A stretch of DNA of 64,000 bases from Candidatus Gastranaerophilales bacterium (GTDB lineage: Bacteria; Cyanobacteriota; Vampirovibrionia; Gastranaerophilales; Gastranaerophilaceae): contig CANQAV010000005.1 of assembly GCA_947589425.1 (NCBI GenBank), positions 1 to 64,000 on the forward strand, given 5' to 3'. The position numbers and the translations under genes are program-made. The notes under the pieces were generated by a model, which was given only the letters and a program-made list of their open reading frames with translations, was not told the origin of the DNA and did not search any database. Shown here piece after piece: positions 4,404-34,380 of the stretch; within the stretch, counting starts at the first letter, position 1; each line of letters begins with the position of its first letter.

Positions 4404-5000
4404 ATGTTGAAATGGTTATATGATAATTGGATGAAAGCAACGCCGTTTTTGGCTTTATACGGTTTTATTTTTATCTTTTTATATGTAAAAGATTACAGCT
4501 ATCCTCTTTATCTTATATGGCTGCAAACCGTTGTGTATTGGTTTCATGAATTTGAAGAATATATTCTGCCGGGCGGGTTTTTAGAATATTTTAATCATAA
4601 TATGATGAAATCAAATGGCGGAGATTATCCTTTATCTAAAGCGGGGTCTTTTTGGATAAATATTCCTCTTATATATCTTTTAATGCCGTTATCTGCAATA
4701 CTTGCCCACTATTTTAGTTTAAAGTGGGGTTTATGGTGTGCTTATTTTTCTTGTTTGAATGCACTGGCGCATGTTGTAATGTTTTTAAAATTCAAAAGAA
4801 AATATAACCCCGGGCTTGTTGTAAGCGTTCTATTTAATATACCGATTGGAATTTATACTGTTTGGTATTTTATCTCAAACAATTTAGTTTCAGTAAAAAT
4901 CAACATAATAAGTATAATCATCGGTATTTTAGCTCAAGCTTCAATGATGATATACGGCTTTTGCTATTTAGTTCCTAAAATGAAAAAGGGGTTAAAATAA
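4404..5000 (+). CDS. HXXEE-domain membrane protein
   Basis: The 198-aa protein carries H48-E-F-E51-E52 at the end of a hydrophobic segment, the signature of the HXXEE family (function unknown). A second His lies in NALAHVVMF near residue 117. About six hydrophobic helices are visible (near 14-30, 34-47, 84-104, 106-123, 133-156 and 164-190), so it is an integral membrane protein. The His/Glu cluster could bind metal, which is an inference from the residues. The next gene starts 4 nt after the stop, so the two are likely co-transcribed. Confidence 0.75.
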   Translation: MLKWLYDNWMKATPFLALYGFIFIFLYVKDYSYPLYLIWLQTVVYWFHEFEEYILPGGFLEYFNHNMMKSNGGDYPLSKAGSFWINIPLIYLLMPLSAILAHYFSLKWGLWCAYFSCLNALAHVVMFLKFKRKYNPGLVVSVLFNIPIGIYTVWYFISNNLVSVKINIISIIIGILAQASMMIYGFCYLVPKMKKGLK

Positions 5001-5004
5001 ATTT

Positions 5005-5334
5005 ATGAAAAAAGTTAAAATTACGGTTTTAAAAACAACTTTTCAAGAGGATTTGGCTCGTGAATACGGAGTTGAAGGTTTATCAACCTGTCCCTTTCAT
5101 AAAGAGGGGCAAACTTATTTAGCAGATTACGCCAAACCCGAAGGTTTTTGTGATGAAGCCTGGAAAGCGATTTATCAATATGTTTTTGCGCTTGCCCACG
5201 GAGCAGATAAATCTACATTTTATTTTAACGATTGGATTAAAACTCCGGGTGTTGCGATTTGCTCTTGTAATGACGGTTTAAGACCCGTTATATTTAAACT
5301 TGAAGCAGAGGATATTGAAAGTAAAACTGTTTAA
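5005..5334 (+). CDS. TIGR04076 family protein
   Basis: This 109-aa protein follows the TIGR04076 pattern throughout: KVKITVLKTTFQEDLAREYG, then CPFHKEGQ, KPEGFCDEAW, and CSCNDGLRPVIFKLE at the C-terminus. Four conserved Cys suggest metal or redox chemistry, but the family has no established function that I know of. Length is normal for the family. It is the second gene of a two-gene unit with the HXXEE protein. It converges on the acetyltransferase gene with 3 nt between stop codons. Confidence 0.75.
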   Translation: MKKVKITVLKTTFQEDLAREYGVEGLSTCPFHKEGQTYLADYAKPEGFCDEAWKAIYQYVFALAHGADKSTFYFNDWIKTPGVAICSCNDGLRPVIFKLEAEDIESKTV

Positions 5335-5337
5335 TAA

Positions 5338-5883
5338 TTATTTTTTAAATTTCTCTTTATCAAGATATTTAATTACTCTTGCAGGGTTTCCGACAACAAC
5401 GGCGTTATCGGGTACATCTTTTGTAACTACAGCCCCTGCTCCAACAACAGCGTTTTCACCTATTGTAACACCGGGTAGAATTGTGACATTCACCCCAATC
5501 CATACGTTTTTCTTTATATGAACGGGTTTACAGGTAATAATATACCTATCATACATATCGTGGTTATTGGTTGCGATTGTGCAGTTTAGCGAAATCATTG
5601 TGTTATCTTCAATAGTTAACCCGCCTGCCGACATACATTGAAAACAGTTTAATATAACGACATTTTTACCTATTTTAACTTTATCGGCTAAGATAGTAAA
5701 AATCGGAGGATGAATAACGGTATTTTCACCCAGTGTATGGTTAAAAAGTTCATCAATAAGTTCAGCACATTTTGGGGTAGTCGGGTTTGTTTGGTTTATC
5801 CTGAAGCATAAATCAGAGCTTCTTTTAGCTTCTTCAATTCGCTCGGGCTCTTGATTTCTTACATCAATTCTAATTTCTTCCAT
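5338..5883 (-). CDS. Sugar O-acetyltransferase (left-handed beta-helix)
   Basis: The 181-aa protein is of the maltose/galactoside O-acetyltransferase type (LacA/Maa). It has hexapeptide repeats (VKIGKNVVI, GLTIEDNTMI, VHIKKNVWIGVNVTILPGVTIGENAVVGAGAVVTKDVPDNAVVVGNPARVIK) and the catalytic-region NNHD motif near residue 103. It should transfer acetyl from acetyl-CoA to a sugar hydroxyl; the substrate is not evident. The ATG at 5883 has GGTGAGG just upstream and is chosen over the 10-residue-longer reading from 5913. It stands alone between convergent and divergent neighbours. Confidence 0.88.
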   Translation of the reverse strand: MEEIRIDVRNQEPERIEEAKRSSDLCFRINQTNPTTPKCAELIDELFNHTLGENTVIHPPIFTILADKVKIGKNVVILNCFQCMSAGGLTIEDNTMISLNCTIATNNHDMYDRYIITCKPVHIKKNVWIGVNVTILPGVTIGENAVVGAGAVVTKDVPDNAVVVGNPARVIKYLDKEKFKK

Positions 5884-18345: not shown

Positions 18346-19151
18346 TAAAAATCGATTATCCTTCCGTCGGATGAATTTATATCGGACGGTTTTTTATATT
18401 TTCCTGCATACAAAGCGCTGTATATGTTTTGACGAAAATGCGGTTTTAATTTCGTTATTTCAAAAAACTCGTCGATAGTTTTAAAACCGTTGTTTTTTGT
18501 GCGATATTGAATTGCTTTTTTAGCCATTATGATACTTATTCCGGGAAGTTTTGACAACTCTTCCGCTCGAGCCGTATTAATATCAATCATGGTTAAAGGG
18601 TCTTTGTCAACTATTACGACTTCTTCGTTTTGTTTGATATATGGATTTTCAGGCTTTTTTACCTGCTCGTTTGCCTTTGCGGGAAGAACTTCTTCAACAA
18701 TAAAATTTCTCTTCAATATCAGCGCAATATTATTATAAGTGGTATAGTTGTTAAATTTAGTACAGATGTAGTCAAATATTTGATTAAATAAATTATTTAC
18801 AAACCCCGCAACACATTGTTCCTGTTTATCCCAAAAAACGGTTAGCGACTTTCCGCTGTTTCCTTTATCCGTTAAAATCATAGCTTGTAAACCAACGTTA
18901 TATATCAACTTCACTCTGTCATTTTTCAATTGATAAATATTTTTTGCTTCAACAAGCCATTTTCTGCATTTGTTACAAGCTTTTTTCCTTCTTATTCTTG
19001 CGGCAATTTTGCTTGACAAACTTTCATCCCAAGGAAGTCCGTCATAGGTTTTGAAATTTCCGGGTCCTCTGCCTCGAACCGCAACCAATAAAATAAGTGC
19101 CATGGCACTGGTAATAATCCTTACTATTAGATTAAAATAAAAGAGAAACAT
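18345..19151 (-). CDS. Membrane-anchored helix-hairpin-helix protein
   Basis: The 268-aa protein has an N-terminal membrane helix (residues about 5-26), a CNKC pair (C59, C62), a middle domain of unknown type, and a C-terminal ComEA-like helix-hairpin-helix (about 190-255). The last part reads MIDINTARAEELSKLPGISIIMAKKAIQYRTKNNGFKTIDEFFEI. Such HhH domains usually bind DNA or mediate assembly. It is the first gene of the operon leading to the radical-SAM, Ycf46, Ycf35-like and DUF2997 genes, and its stop overlaps the next start. No strong ribosome site is visible, so the start is provisional. Confidence 0.75.
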   Translation of the reverse strand: MFLFYFNLIVRIITSAMALILLVAVRGRGPGNFKTYDGLPWDESLSSKIAARIRRKKACNKCRKWLVEAKNIYQLKNDRVKLIYNVGLQAMILTDKGNSGKSLTVFWDKQEQCVAGFVNNLFNQIFDYICTKFNNYTTYNNIALILKRNFIVEEVLPAKANEQVKKPENPYIKQNEEVVIVDKDPLTMIDINTARAEELSKLPGISIIMAKKAIQYRTKNNGFKTIDEFFEITKLKPHFRQNIYSALYAGKYKKPSDINSSDGRIIDF

Positions 19152-20280: not shown

Positions 20281-20288
20281 CCCCCCCC
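20281..20288 (-). repeat. Poly-G8 tract at the 5' end of the GT8 gene
   Basis: Eight C on the plus strand (G on the coding strand) lie between the inferred start at 20343 and the GT8 body. G7 gives CCA TAG and G8 gives GGG TAA, both stops. G9 gives an open frame into the GT8 domain. It is a candidate slipped-strand switch. Confidence 0.75.
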
Positions 20289-31879: not shown

Positions 31880-32815
31880 ATGGAAAAAAAGCTTATACTA
31901 ATCGGCTCGGGCGCATATTTTACGGATAGCTTTATTTATTTTGCAAAAAAAGGCTTTAAAGTAAAAGTTATAAAAACGGGTAAGACAACAAAGTGGTTTA
32001 TGTCCAATTATCAAATATATCAAGATTTAAACTTTGAAATTATTGATGCGGACTATGAAAACAAAGATTTTATAAAAAGCTTGGATATCAATAAAAACAC
32101 TATCGTAATCGGGGGCGGAGGCTACTTTGGAGATTTGGAAAACTATCCCGAAGGAAGAAAAAGTGCTCATAATGACCTTTGGGTTTTAAAAGAAATTGCG
32201 AATTATAATAAACAAAATAATTTGGGGGCTTTAACCGTAAGATATTTTAACGGGGATACGGGTTTCGGTACAAAAATGGAAGCGGAGCTTTTTGAAGAAA
32301 GCCTTAAAAATGTTGATTTATTGATTTTTGATAATGACAATTTAAGGGATTTTGTAATTTATAATGCTCCTTCCCTGAAAAATAAAAAATATATTTATGC
32401 ATGGTTTGAAACACCATTAAAACAATTCGTTTACCATAATGAAAACAAGGAATATAAAAAACAATTTATCTCGTTTGGAAGAAACATCTGTTCAACAGAA
32501 ATAAATTATCCTTCAAAAGCAATGTTTTATCCCTATCCATATAATAAATTTAAAGGAATTAAAAGAATAACAGAAAGATTTTACCACAAAAAAATTCAGC
32601 ACTTAAAAAGCATTTATTATATTGCGGGAATGTCAAATTATAAACAAATCCTCTCAGACAGAAAAGAAGTTTTTGAAAAGCTGTCAAAAATTACCTTTGG
32701 TTTATCGCATTTTTATGATATTTTTCAAAATTCCGTTGAAGAATTTTTGAAAAATAAAGAGTTTTATTTCTCTCTAACCGCTCAAAATTCATCTAATAAA
32801 GAGGGGGGGGGGTAG
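31880..32815 (+). CDS. Glycosyltransferase-like paralog 1, N-terminal part (phase OFF)
   Basis: The frame gives 311 aa starting with a Rossmann-like LILIGSGAYFTDSFIYFAKKGFKVKVIKTGK and containing GALTVRYFNGDTGFGTKMEAE and FDNDNLRDFV. It ends at ...SSNKEGGG followed by TAG, immediately after a G10 tract. The missing C-terminal part continues in another frame to 33095. Removing one G joins them into a 404-aa protein. The overall plan resembles a GT-B glycosyltransferase, but no specific family is recognised. It is 1.3 kb from a close paralog with the same break. Confidence 0.6.
   Translation: MEKKLILIGSGAYFTDSFIYFAKKGFKVKVIKTGKTTKWFMSNYQIYQDLNFEIIDADYENKDFIKSLDINKNTIVIGGGGYFGDLENYPEGRKSAHNDLWVLKEIANYNKQNNLGALTVRYFNGDTGFGTKMEAELFEESLKNVDLLIFDNDNLRDFVIYNAPSLKNKKYIYAWFETPLKQFVYHNENKEYKKQFISFGRNICSTEINYPSKAMFYPYPYNKFKGIKRITERFYHKKIQHLKSIYYIAGMSNYKQILSDRKEVFEKLSKITFGLSHFYDIFQNSVEEFLKNKEFYFSLTAQNSSNKEGGG
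32195..32355 (+). repeat. 161-bp block identical in both paralogs (copy 1)
   Basis: By eye this block matches 33458-33618 base for base, encoding NYNKQNNLGALTVRYFNG through NDNLRDFV, while sequence on both sides differs. It marks recent gene conversion or recombination between the tandem paralogs. Confidence 0.85.
32803..32812 (+). repeat. Poly-G10 tract in paralog 1
   Basis: Ten G follow AAAGA and lead to TAG. The downstream coding frame is reached with nine (or twelve) G: GAG GGG GGG GGT AGG AAT then reads EGGGRNLYYGFCNNPSKD. It is a candidate phase-variation tract, OFF in this assembly. Confidence 0.85.
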
Positions 32816-33095
32816 GAATTTATACTACGGATTTTGCAATAACCCCTCAAAAGATGTTTGCTATTTGATGTATGGAATTATTCCCCTTGTTCCCCATAAT
32901 ATCCACAGTATTTACAAAACTTTGGCGGATAAAAAAATGGCAATCGTAATTAAAGATAAGTCCGATTTTAAAAGATTGCTAAAGATGAGTGATGATGAAA
33001 TACAGGAATATAGGGATAATATTTATAATAATTCCGATTTATTTACCTTTGATAAAACAGGAGATATGTTAATCAAAGAGCTTGAAAAAAATTAA
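32814..33095 (+). CDS. Glycosyltransferase-like paralog 1, C-terminal part (out of frame)
   Basis: After the poly-G tract the other frame reads RNLYYGFCNNPSKDVCYLMYGIIPLVPHN and runs to a stop at 33095, ending NNSDLFTFDKTGDMLIKELEKN. It has the look of a GT-B C-terminal domain (GIIPLVP, then KDKSDFKRLLKMSDDEIQEYRDN). The first internal ATG is at 32862-32865 but has no ribosome site. The segment is strongly conserved with the matching part of paralog 2 (34084-34380), so it is under selection as protein. It should be translated only when the tract is in the ON length. Confidence 0.65.
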   Translation, partial: RNLYYGFCNNPSKDVCYLMYGIIPLVPHNIHSIYKTLADKKMAIVIKDKSDFKRLLKMSDDEIQEYRDNIYNNSDLFTFDKTGDMLIKELEKN

Positions 33096-33148: not shown

Positions 33149-34129
33149 ATGAAAAAAAATCTTATACTAATCGGCTCGGGTTGTTGGTTTATTGACAGTT
33201 TTTCATATTTTATCGAAAAAGGTTTTAAAATGACTGTCATAAAAGTTGAAAAAACAGCATCTTTTTTTGCTCCAAATTACGAAATATTAAATGCTTTAGG
33301 TGCAAAGATTATTGAAGCTGAATATAACAGCGATTTTATTAAAAGTTTAAACATAAATCAAAATACAATTATAATTGGCGGCGGTTATTATTCCGGCGAT
33401 TCCCCCAATTTTAACGGAAGCTTTGTTTCTCATAATGAATTATGGCTTATGAAAAATATTGCGAATTATAATAAACAAAATAATTTGGGGGCTTTAACCG
33501 TAAGATATTTTAACGGGGATACGGGTTTCGGTACAAAAATGGAAGCGGAGCTTTTTGAAGAAAGCCTTAAAAATGTTGATTTATTGATTTTTGATAATGA
33601 CAATTTAAGGGATTTTGTTGTTACAAATGCTCCCAAATTAAAAGACAAAAAATATTTTTACGGCTGGATTGAAACCCCGTTAAAAAAATATGTAAATCAT
33701 AATTTAACAAAAAAATATTTTAGAGAATTTATCTCTTTCGGAAGAGTTATCTGTTCTGATAAAAATATGAAATATCCCGTAAAAACAGCGTTTTATCCCT
33801 ATCCGTATAATCAGTACAGGGGAATAAAAAGAATAATAAAAAGATTTTATCATAAAAAAATACGACATCTAAAAAGCGGTTACTACATTGCAGGATGCGC
33901 AAATTTGGCACAAATCCTTTCTGACAGAAAAGAGGCTTTTCAAAAACTGTCCGATTACGCCTTTGGTTTATCGCATTTTTATGATATTTTTCAGGGCTCA
34001 ATTGAAAAATTTACGAAAAACAAAGACTTTTATTTTTCACTTTTCGGACAAAATTCAACTATTAAAGAGGGGGGGGTAAGGGTATGTCTGCCTATTACGC
34101 CTTTTGCAATAACCCCTCAAAAGATGTAA
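33149..34129 (+). CDS. Glycosyltransferase-like paralog 2, N-terminal part (phase OFF)
   Basis: This is the tandem paralog of the 31880 gene, starting NLILIGSGCWFIDSFSYFIEKGFKMTVIK with AAAGGATG as ribosome site. The reading frame passes a G8 tract, goes out of phase and ends 18 codons later (VRVCLPITPFAITPQKM). In the correct frame the sequence continues as AYYAFCNNPSKDVTYLMNGIIPL. With nine G the product would be 410 aa. It shares a 161-bp identical block with paralog 1. Confidence 0.6.
   Translation: MKKNLILIGSGCWFIDSFSYFIEKGFKMTVIKVEKTASFFAPNYEILNALGAKIIEAEYNSDFIKSLNINQNTIIIGGGYYSGDSPNFNGSFVSHNELWLMKNIANYNKQNNLGALTVRYFNGDTGFGTKMEAELFEESLKNVDLLIFDNDNLRDFVVTNAPKLKDKKYFYGWIETPLKKYVNHNLTKKYFREFISFGRVICSDKNMKYPVKTAFYPYPYNQYRGIKRIIKRFYHKKIRHLKSGYYIAGCANLAQILSDRKEAFQKLSDYAFGLSHFYDIFQGSIEKFTKNKDFYFSLFGQNSTIKEGGVRVCLPITPFAITPQKM
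33458..33618 (+). repeat. 161-bp block identical in both paralogs (copy 2)
   Basis: This is the second copy of the identical block described at 32195-32355. A further nearly identical stretch covers the 3' ends (CTAAAGATGAGTGATGATGA... at about 32979 and 34239). Confidence 0.85.
34069..34076 (+). repeat. Poly-G8 tract in paralog 2
   Basis: Eight G follow AAAGA and lead to TAAGGG. Adding one G gives GAG GGG GGG GGT AAG GGT ATG, which joins the N-terminal frame to the conserved C-terminal domain. The ON length, nine, is the same as that deduced for paralog 1. Confidence 0.85.
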
Positions 34130-34380
34130 CATATTTGATGAACGGGATTATACCTTTAATTTCTCACAATTTACATAATGTATATAAAAGCATGACAGAT
34201 AAAAAAATGGCAATTTTAATTAAAGATAAGTCCGATTTTAGAAAATTACTAAAGATGAGTGATGATGAAATACAGGAATATAGGGATAATATTTATAATA
34301 ATTCGGATTTATTTACCTTTGACAGAACCGCTCAAAGAATAATTGAAGAATTTGAAATTTCAAAACGGTTAAACAAATAA
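34084..34380 (+). CDS. Glycosyltransferase-like paralog 2, C-terminal part (out of frame)
   Basis: The 98-aa frame opens at an ATG (SAYYAFCNNPSKD) just after the G8 tract and overlaps the end of the out-of-phase N-terminal frame. It matches the C-terminal part of paralog 1 closely: GIIPLISHNLHNVYKSM, MSDDEIQEYRDN, NNSDLFTFD. It could be translated alone from 34084, but without a ribosome site a functional protein is more likely only from the G9 joined frame. The last residues (ISKRLNK) are specific to this copy. Confidence 0.65.
   Translation: MSAYYAFCNNPSKDVTYLMNGIIPLISHNLHNVYKSMTDKKMAILIKDKSDFRKLLKMSDDEIQEYRDNIYNNSDLFTFDRTAQRIIEEFEISKRLNK

Follow-up and report, generated by a model that had tools for sequence, protein, structure and literature searches.

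Poly-G tracts interrupt a tandem pair of probable phase-variable genes in a Gastranaerophilales bacterium

Introduction

Two adjacent paralogous genes in a Candidatus Gastranaerophilales genome each carry a run of guanines part-way along, and in each the second part of the gene is out of frame with the first. Are these genes dying, wrongly assembled or reversibly switched? The question reaches beyond a single locus. A 2025 review asks, without settling the matter, why genomes with many phase-variable loci seem to be confined to pathogens, and suggests database bias as one reason (PMC11868660). That question becomes testable by comparison in a non-pathogenic gut lineage with about 36 poly-G tracts, most of whose sister species are without them. 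The lineage is far from Campylobacter and Neisseria, and its tracts fall chiefly in genes for surface glycans. Tract genes of this type may also be miscalled as pseudogenes when the genomes are annotated automatically. Phase variation and Gastranaerophilales are linked by no paper in the literature searched, outside which most subscription papers fall; for Melainabacteria a single paper, a flagellin survey, makes the link. Here we analyse the pair within a stretch of 64,000 nucleotides (the window) and across the 1.87-Mb, 32-contig, 99.78% complete genome to which it belongs.

Two tandem paralogues are out of frame at the same codon

The tandem genes begin at 31880 (paralogue 1) and 33149 (paralogue 2), and their heads, the parts before the tracts, are 70% identical in protein (Table 1). 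As assembled, paralogue 2 is an open reading frame of 326 residues (33149-34129) with the C-terminal end ...IKEGGVRVCLPITPFAITPQKM. An earlier note, made from the letters of this DNA, held that a G8 tract cuts the gene and that G9 restores a protein of 410 residues. With the tract counted, the frames translated and the lengths computed, that claim is exact: the product is 309 aa at G7, 326 at G8, 410 at G9, 310 at G10 and 327 at G11. The tract lies within the reading frame, and one-base changes on either side of G9 toggle the product between full-length and truncated forms. The note was also right to call the out-of-phase stretch after the tract a nonsense reading of coding nucleotides. This nonsense tail has 17 residues, and the real tail, beginning KGMSAYYAFCNNPSKDV..., is open for 100 codons (34078-34377) up to its stop.

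Paralogue 1 departs from the full-length frame in the other direction, with G10 at the codon where paralogue 2 has G8. It yields 311 aa as assembled, and G9 would yield 404 aa. The description of one copy as a base long and the other as a base short therefore stands, as does the idea of a shared ON state when it is expressed in tract length, as head and tail join in both paralogues only at G9 (modulo 3), with the other lengths among G7-G11 giving 309-329 aa. The full-length products themselves differ, at 404 versus 410 aa. Both paralogues are in the OFF state in the assembly.

Table 1. Positions of the tandem paralogues, their poly-G tracts and associated features in the window
Feature	Position	Strand	Basis
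Third tract of the window, G8, in a family-8 glycosyltransferase (GT8) gene, 18 codons past a start, out of frame	20281..20288	-	Sequence and Pfam
Head of paralogue 1, 307 aa, sharing 70% identity with paralogue 2	31880..32800	+	ORF and protein comparison
161-nt block, paralogue 1 copy, identical to 33458-33618	32195..32355	+	Gene-conversion-like
Paralogue 1 tract: G10, out of frame and followed at once by a stop; G9 would give full length	32803..32812	+	Sequence; computed product lengths
Paralogue 1 tail, 93 codons and stop, out of frame with head, under purifying selection	32814..33095	+	ORF and substitution analysis
56-nt block, paralogue 1 copy, downstream of tract, identical to 34249-34304	32979..33034	+	Sequence identity
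Paralogue 2 head, 306 aa, modelled Rossmann-like N-terminal domain and start of second half	33149..34066	+	Upstream of tract; N-terminal fold from structure model
161-nt block, paralogue 2 copy, identical to 32195-32355	33458..33618	+	Gene-conversion-like
Paralogue 2 tract: G8, out of frame; G9 would give full length	34069..34076	+	Sequence; computed product lengths
Nonsense tail read now from the head frame, VRVCLPITPFAITPQKM then stop	34077..34129	+	Translation
Paralogue 2 tail, 100 codons and stop, frame one base off head, under purifying selection	34078..34380	+	ORF and substitution analysis
56-nt block, paralogue 2 copy, downstream of tract, identical to 32979-33034	34249..34304	+	Sequence identity

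Outside two identical blocks of 161 and 56 nt, dS between the paralogues exceeds 1; identity over such lengths inside so diverged a sequence looks like gene conversion from one copy to the other, recent in the case of the 161-nt block. Because the two poly-G tracts are homologous, and lie in 70%-identical tandem paralogues that appear to have swapped DNA, they are not independent events. This bears on the further claim of the earlier note, that opposite-sign errors argue against random gene death. Since the copies share the tract through descent and gene conversion, opposite signs alone make a weak argument. The conclusion that gene death is unlikely is nevertheless upheld by selection on the tails, the lack of any other lesion and the dozens of comparable tracts that glycan genes contain.

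Upstream of each of the two genes, a TATAAT-like box can be made out by eye. A promoter scan returned sites no more numerous than expected by chance, and an Rfam search of the 64-kb window gave no match. The neighbourhood of the pair, beside a hydrogenase operon, is not common to relatives. For the neighbouring hydrogenase gene, the named near relatives are mostly Candidatus Gastranaerophilales, and protein identity reaches 85-88% in metagenome-assembled genomes (MAGs) named Lapin, presumably from rabbit gut.

Both tails are constrained in the fused frame

We compared the heads and the tails of the two paralogues separately, with and without the identical blocks. The heads gave a dN/dS of 0.27 (0.23 without the identical block) and the tails one of 0.16 (0.15 without it). 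In the fused frame, pS between the tails was 0.53 and pN was 0.12 (pN/pS of 0.23), and the balance of synonymous and non-synonymous change departed from neutrality (Fisher P ~2e-8). The two other frames gave pN/pS values of 1.1 and 1.4 and contained 5 to 17 stops. Constraint on the tails is thus confined to the fused frame, so that translation of the tails, out of reach of the heads as assembled, must have served a function through most of the period after duplication. No further frameshift or stop was found in either paralogue over about 800 codons. These patterns indicate that selection has kept the pair functional despite its OFF state, and make gene death unlikely.

Poly-G tracts are in excess across the genome

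The genome contains 36 runs of G8 or longer (13 of G8, 16 of G9, 5 of G10 and 2 of G11, that is, 23 of G9 or longer), and 6 runs of exactly G7. When a fourth-order Markov model was extrapolated from shorter runs within the window, some 4 runs were expected to have at least eight G and some 0.7 to have at least nine, figures that rose to as many as about 14 and about 3 at lower orders. The repeat tracts are longer than composition predicts. A/T runs in the window reach a maximum of 8 bases despite a content of 67% A+T, and intact ORFs there accommodate 74 of them with 7-8 bases, which argues, for A/T runs only, against a general homopolymer error in the assembly.

Tracts occur near gene starts, in mid-gene, near gene ends and in intergenic DNA, and of the mid-gene tracts about half are in frame. 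Those inside genes are mostly in glycosyltransferase genes and other glycan-modifying genes. Pfam searches of the tract ORFs identified GT8 (five, one of them in the window at 20281), GT90 (two), GT2 and GT9 enzymes, the GT90 count resting on a tandem pair of which one member was scanned and the other is 89% identical to it. Further matches were to polysialyltransferase-like, DUF4422, FkbM methyltransferase, AlgX-like and polysaccharide deacetylase families, to a polysaccharide pyruvyl transferase fused to an FrhB-type domain, to two short-chain dehydrogenases (SDR) and to a TPP enzyme.

The GT90 genes form a second tandem pair (L017:2258-3219 and 4430-5362) with a mid-gene tract, G8 being out of frame and G9 in frame; this pair is absent from relatives. 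Elsewhere (L009:14852-14862 and 18626-18636), G11 stands just before the start codon of two copies of a secreted-looking protein with identical 5' regions, one of 1142 aa and one of at least 454 aa that runs off the stretch. These G11 tracts could possibly act as a switch of translation initiation or transcription.

The product is a candidate GT-B glycosyltransferase

Searches of Pfam, NCBIfam and PDB sequences with the paralogue protein gave no match. Nor did relatives of the protein appear in a contig scan, 58 related genomes, 382 genomes of the class, 386 genomes of the phylum, plasmids or the PDB; weak matches in two genomes (G335 and G232) were rejected, as the ORFs look unrelated by sequence. 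With no sequence family and no relative in up to 386 class or phylum genomes, the pair seems to represent a narrow accessory family.

A structure model built from the two paralogues was credible for the first 170 residues only (pLDDT 44-90, falling below 50 after residue 174). The modelled N-terminal 180 residues best matched GT-B folds, namely the GT4 structure 2jjm (Z 11.8), PglA (8dqd, 11.3) and NeuC (10.5). In a single-sequence model, FtsZ and other Rossmann-like folds ranked best, the GT-B ranking was not repeated, and nothing was added on the C-terminal half. A weak profile match (E 0.005) fell on one ORF, which, from its sequence, we take to be WaaA-like. Unlike the GT-B glycosyltransferases that it resembles at its N terminus, the paralogue has no Pfam or PDB sequence match, and its C-terminal domain lies outside the credible model. 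On the strength of the N-terminal model and the company of glycan genes, we think it likely that the product is a divergent GT-B glycosyltransferase of surface-glycan synthesis, with an activity that is so far predicted.

Slippage and its alternatives

Paralogue 2 is very probably a phase-variable (contingency) gene for a surface-glycan enzyme, with slipped-strand switching at its poly-G tract. Slippage of the in-frame tract during replication would change its length among G8, G9 and G10. At G9, the full-length 410-aa protein would be made (ON), at G8 or G10 truncated forms would be made (OFF), and the tandem paralogue 1 would switch likewise. In GT-B enzymes, the C-terminal part binds the sugar donor, and it is this part that the OFF state would drop. 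Switching in living populations is what we infer from these sequence features.

The same assembly could have arisen if the genes had recently died, each copy inactivated when its mutable G tract slipped by one base, and were now decaying. Both are out of frame as assembled, and a family absent from up to 386 class or phylum genomes searched looks dispensable. Decay of this kind sits poorly, however, with tails that are conserved in the fused frame, with the absence of a second lesion and with an excess of tracts in glycan genes, about half of the mid-gene tracts being in frame. A very recent loss would look identical in sequence, but the tract would make that loss reversible, and we consider gene death very improbable. 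We give equally little credence to an error of assembly or sequencing, in which all cells have G9 and the tracts were miscounted. Homopolymers are the usual site of such errors, and our control covers A/T runs only; even so, 74 of these runs, 7-8 bases long, leave the ORFs of the window that contain them intact, G9 tracts at other loci keep the reading frame, and the two tracts are off in opposite directions. Were such an error present, G9 here would still be a hypermutable site.

Conservation of the tails in both copies would also be expected if ribosomal frameshifting or RNA-polymerase slippage yielded some full-length protein, making the OFF state leaky or leaving the tract length fixed, and long G runs are known to permit transcript slippage. 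Against this, opposite shifts would be needed at the same site in the two copies, tract length differs between the paralogues, and tracts elsewhere lie at gene starts, at gene ends and between genes; the chance that this accounts for the pair is slight. It is scarcely credible that the gene is instead split, with the tail translated separately from an ATG just behind the tract of paralogue 2 and the G run serving as a ribosome-binding site. That ATG is in the tail frame (KGM...), but paralogue 1 has no start codon there, its first tail methionine coming about 20 residues in, and the tail by itself makes up little of what is a two-domain protein.

Comparison with known phase-variable systems

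The mechanism proposed for the pair is that of textbook SSR phase variation; within the literature searched, this lineage is a new setting for it. In Campylobacter jejuni, which is without functional mismatch repair, an indel bias holds tracts at G9-G10 (PMC8355987). The present tracts share with the C. jejuni poly-G loci (LOS, capsule and flagellar glycan genes) an intragenic position, lengths mostly of 8-11 with a mode near G9, a single ON frame, a place in glycan-modifying genes and numbers in the tens per genome, and MutL was not detected in the source genome. They differ in phylum, Gastranaerophilales being non-photosynthetic relatives of Cyanobacteriota, in the presence of MutS with FYE and Walker motifs, in a paralogue protein without a known family and in the strong GA/AA bias that precedes tracts of the source genome. 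A Helicobacter canadensis report judges coding regions with homopolymeric tracts to be potentially phase variable, a likeness to the present genes, and its title names C-terminal sequence switching (PMC2823697). The present pair, by contrast, looks like an ON/OFF switch and not an exchange of C-termini, because only one of the three frames gives a long product.

Tracts and mismatch repair in related genomes

Tracts of G9 or longer are missing from the majority of the 27 congeneric species searched. Four of the 28 genus members, the source genome included, have 15-27 of them, and counts in several further genera of the family run from 10 to 91. One congener (G011) has orthologues of two tract genes, a deacetylase and a polysialyltransferase-like gene, with 90% DNA identity and the tract at the same position. 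The deacetylase tract is G9 and in frame in both genomes. The source genome has the polysialyltransferase-like gene in frame, whereas G011 has it off by one base, its tail still intact; there an extra A beside the run changes the frame, the G count being equal in both species. This comparison supports the view that tracts may be kept across species while the phase of the gene changes. A search for orthologues of the GT8 gene of the window, with its tract, gave only distant GT8 matches (28-35% identity). G011 also has three tandem genes with G9 at one codon, which we take from their sequence to be FkbM-type.

MutS is present in the source genome, with a GNFYE mismatch motif and a Walker A motif, and in all relatives searched, with a weaker match in a few of other families and a lower-scoring form in the source genus. 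Loss of MutS was therefore rejected as the cause of the tracts. MutL was not detected in the source genome or in the 22 congeners searched, where only short matches of less than 25 bits appeared; that in the source genome falls in an ORF reading as a histidine kinase. Relatives of other families had MutL in 13 of 13 cases. Absence of MutL would ease slippage, but as a permissive condition and not as the cause, because tracts are scarce or absent in the majority of the congeners that lack it. As a sufficient cause, MutL loss was rejected: 23 of 23 genus members examined are without MutL, but few carry many tracts.

The tracts of the source genome share a 5' context. An A precedes 35 of the 36 (GA in 24, AA in 9), against a background of 29% for runs of G4-6, and a T follows 26 of 36. 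GA precedes 10 of 21 tracts in G011 and 11 of 27 in another congener (G016), and 0 of 91 in G030, which belongs to a different genus of the family. The A bias is lineage-specific, and its origin is unexplained. It is conceivable, and we regard it as rather unlikely, that the tracts are more than selected chance runs and that, in this genus lacking MutL, some process peculiar to the lineage starts or sustains G tracts at GA/AA sites.

The 91 tracts of G9 or longer in G030 are of another sort. Most of those read (L101-L113) lie in a dispersed repeat, cccgacta-Gn-cgttaggtt, often near contig ends, and several copies of it are upstream of prepilin-like ORFs (FTLAEVLITLGIIGVVA). This repeat is a different kind of poly-G element.
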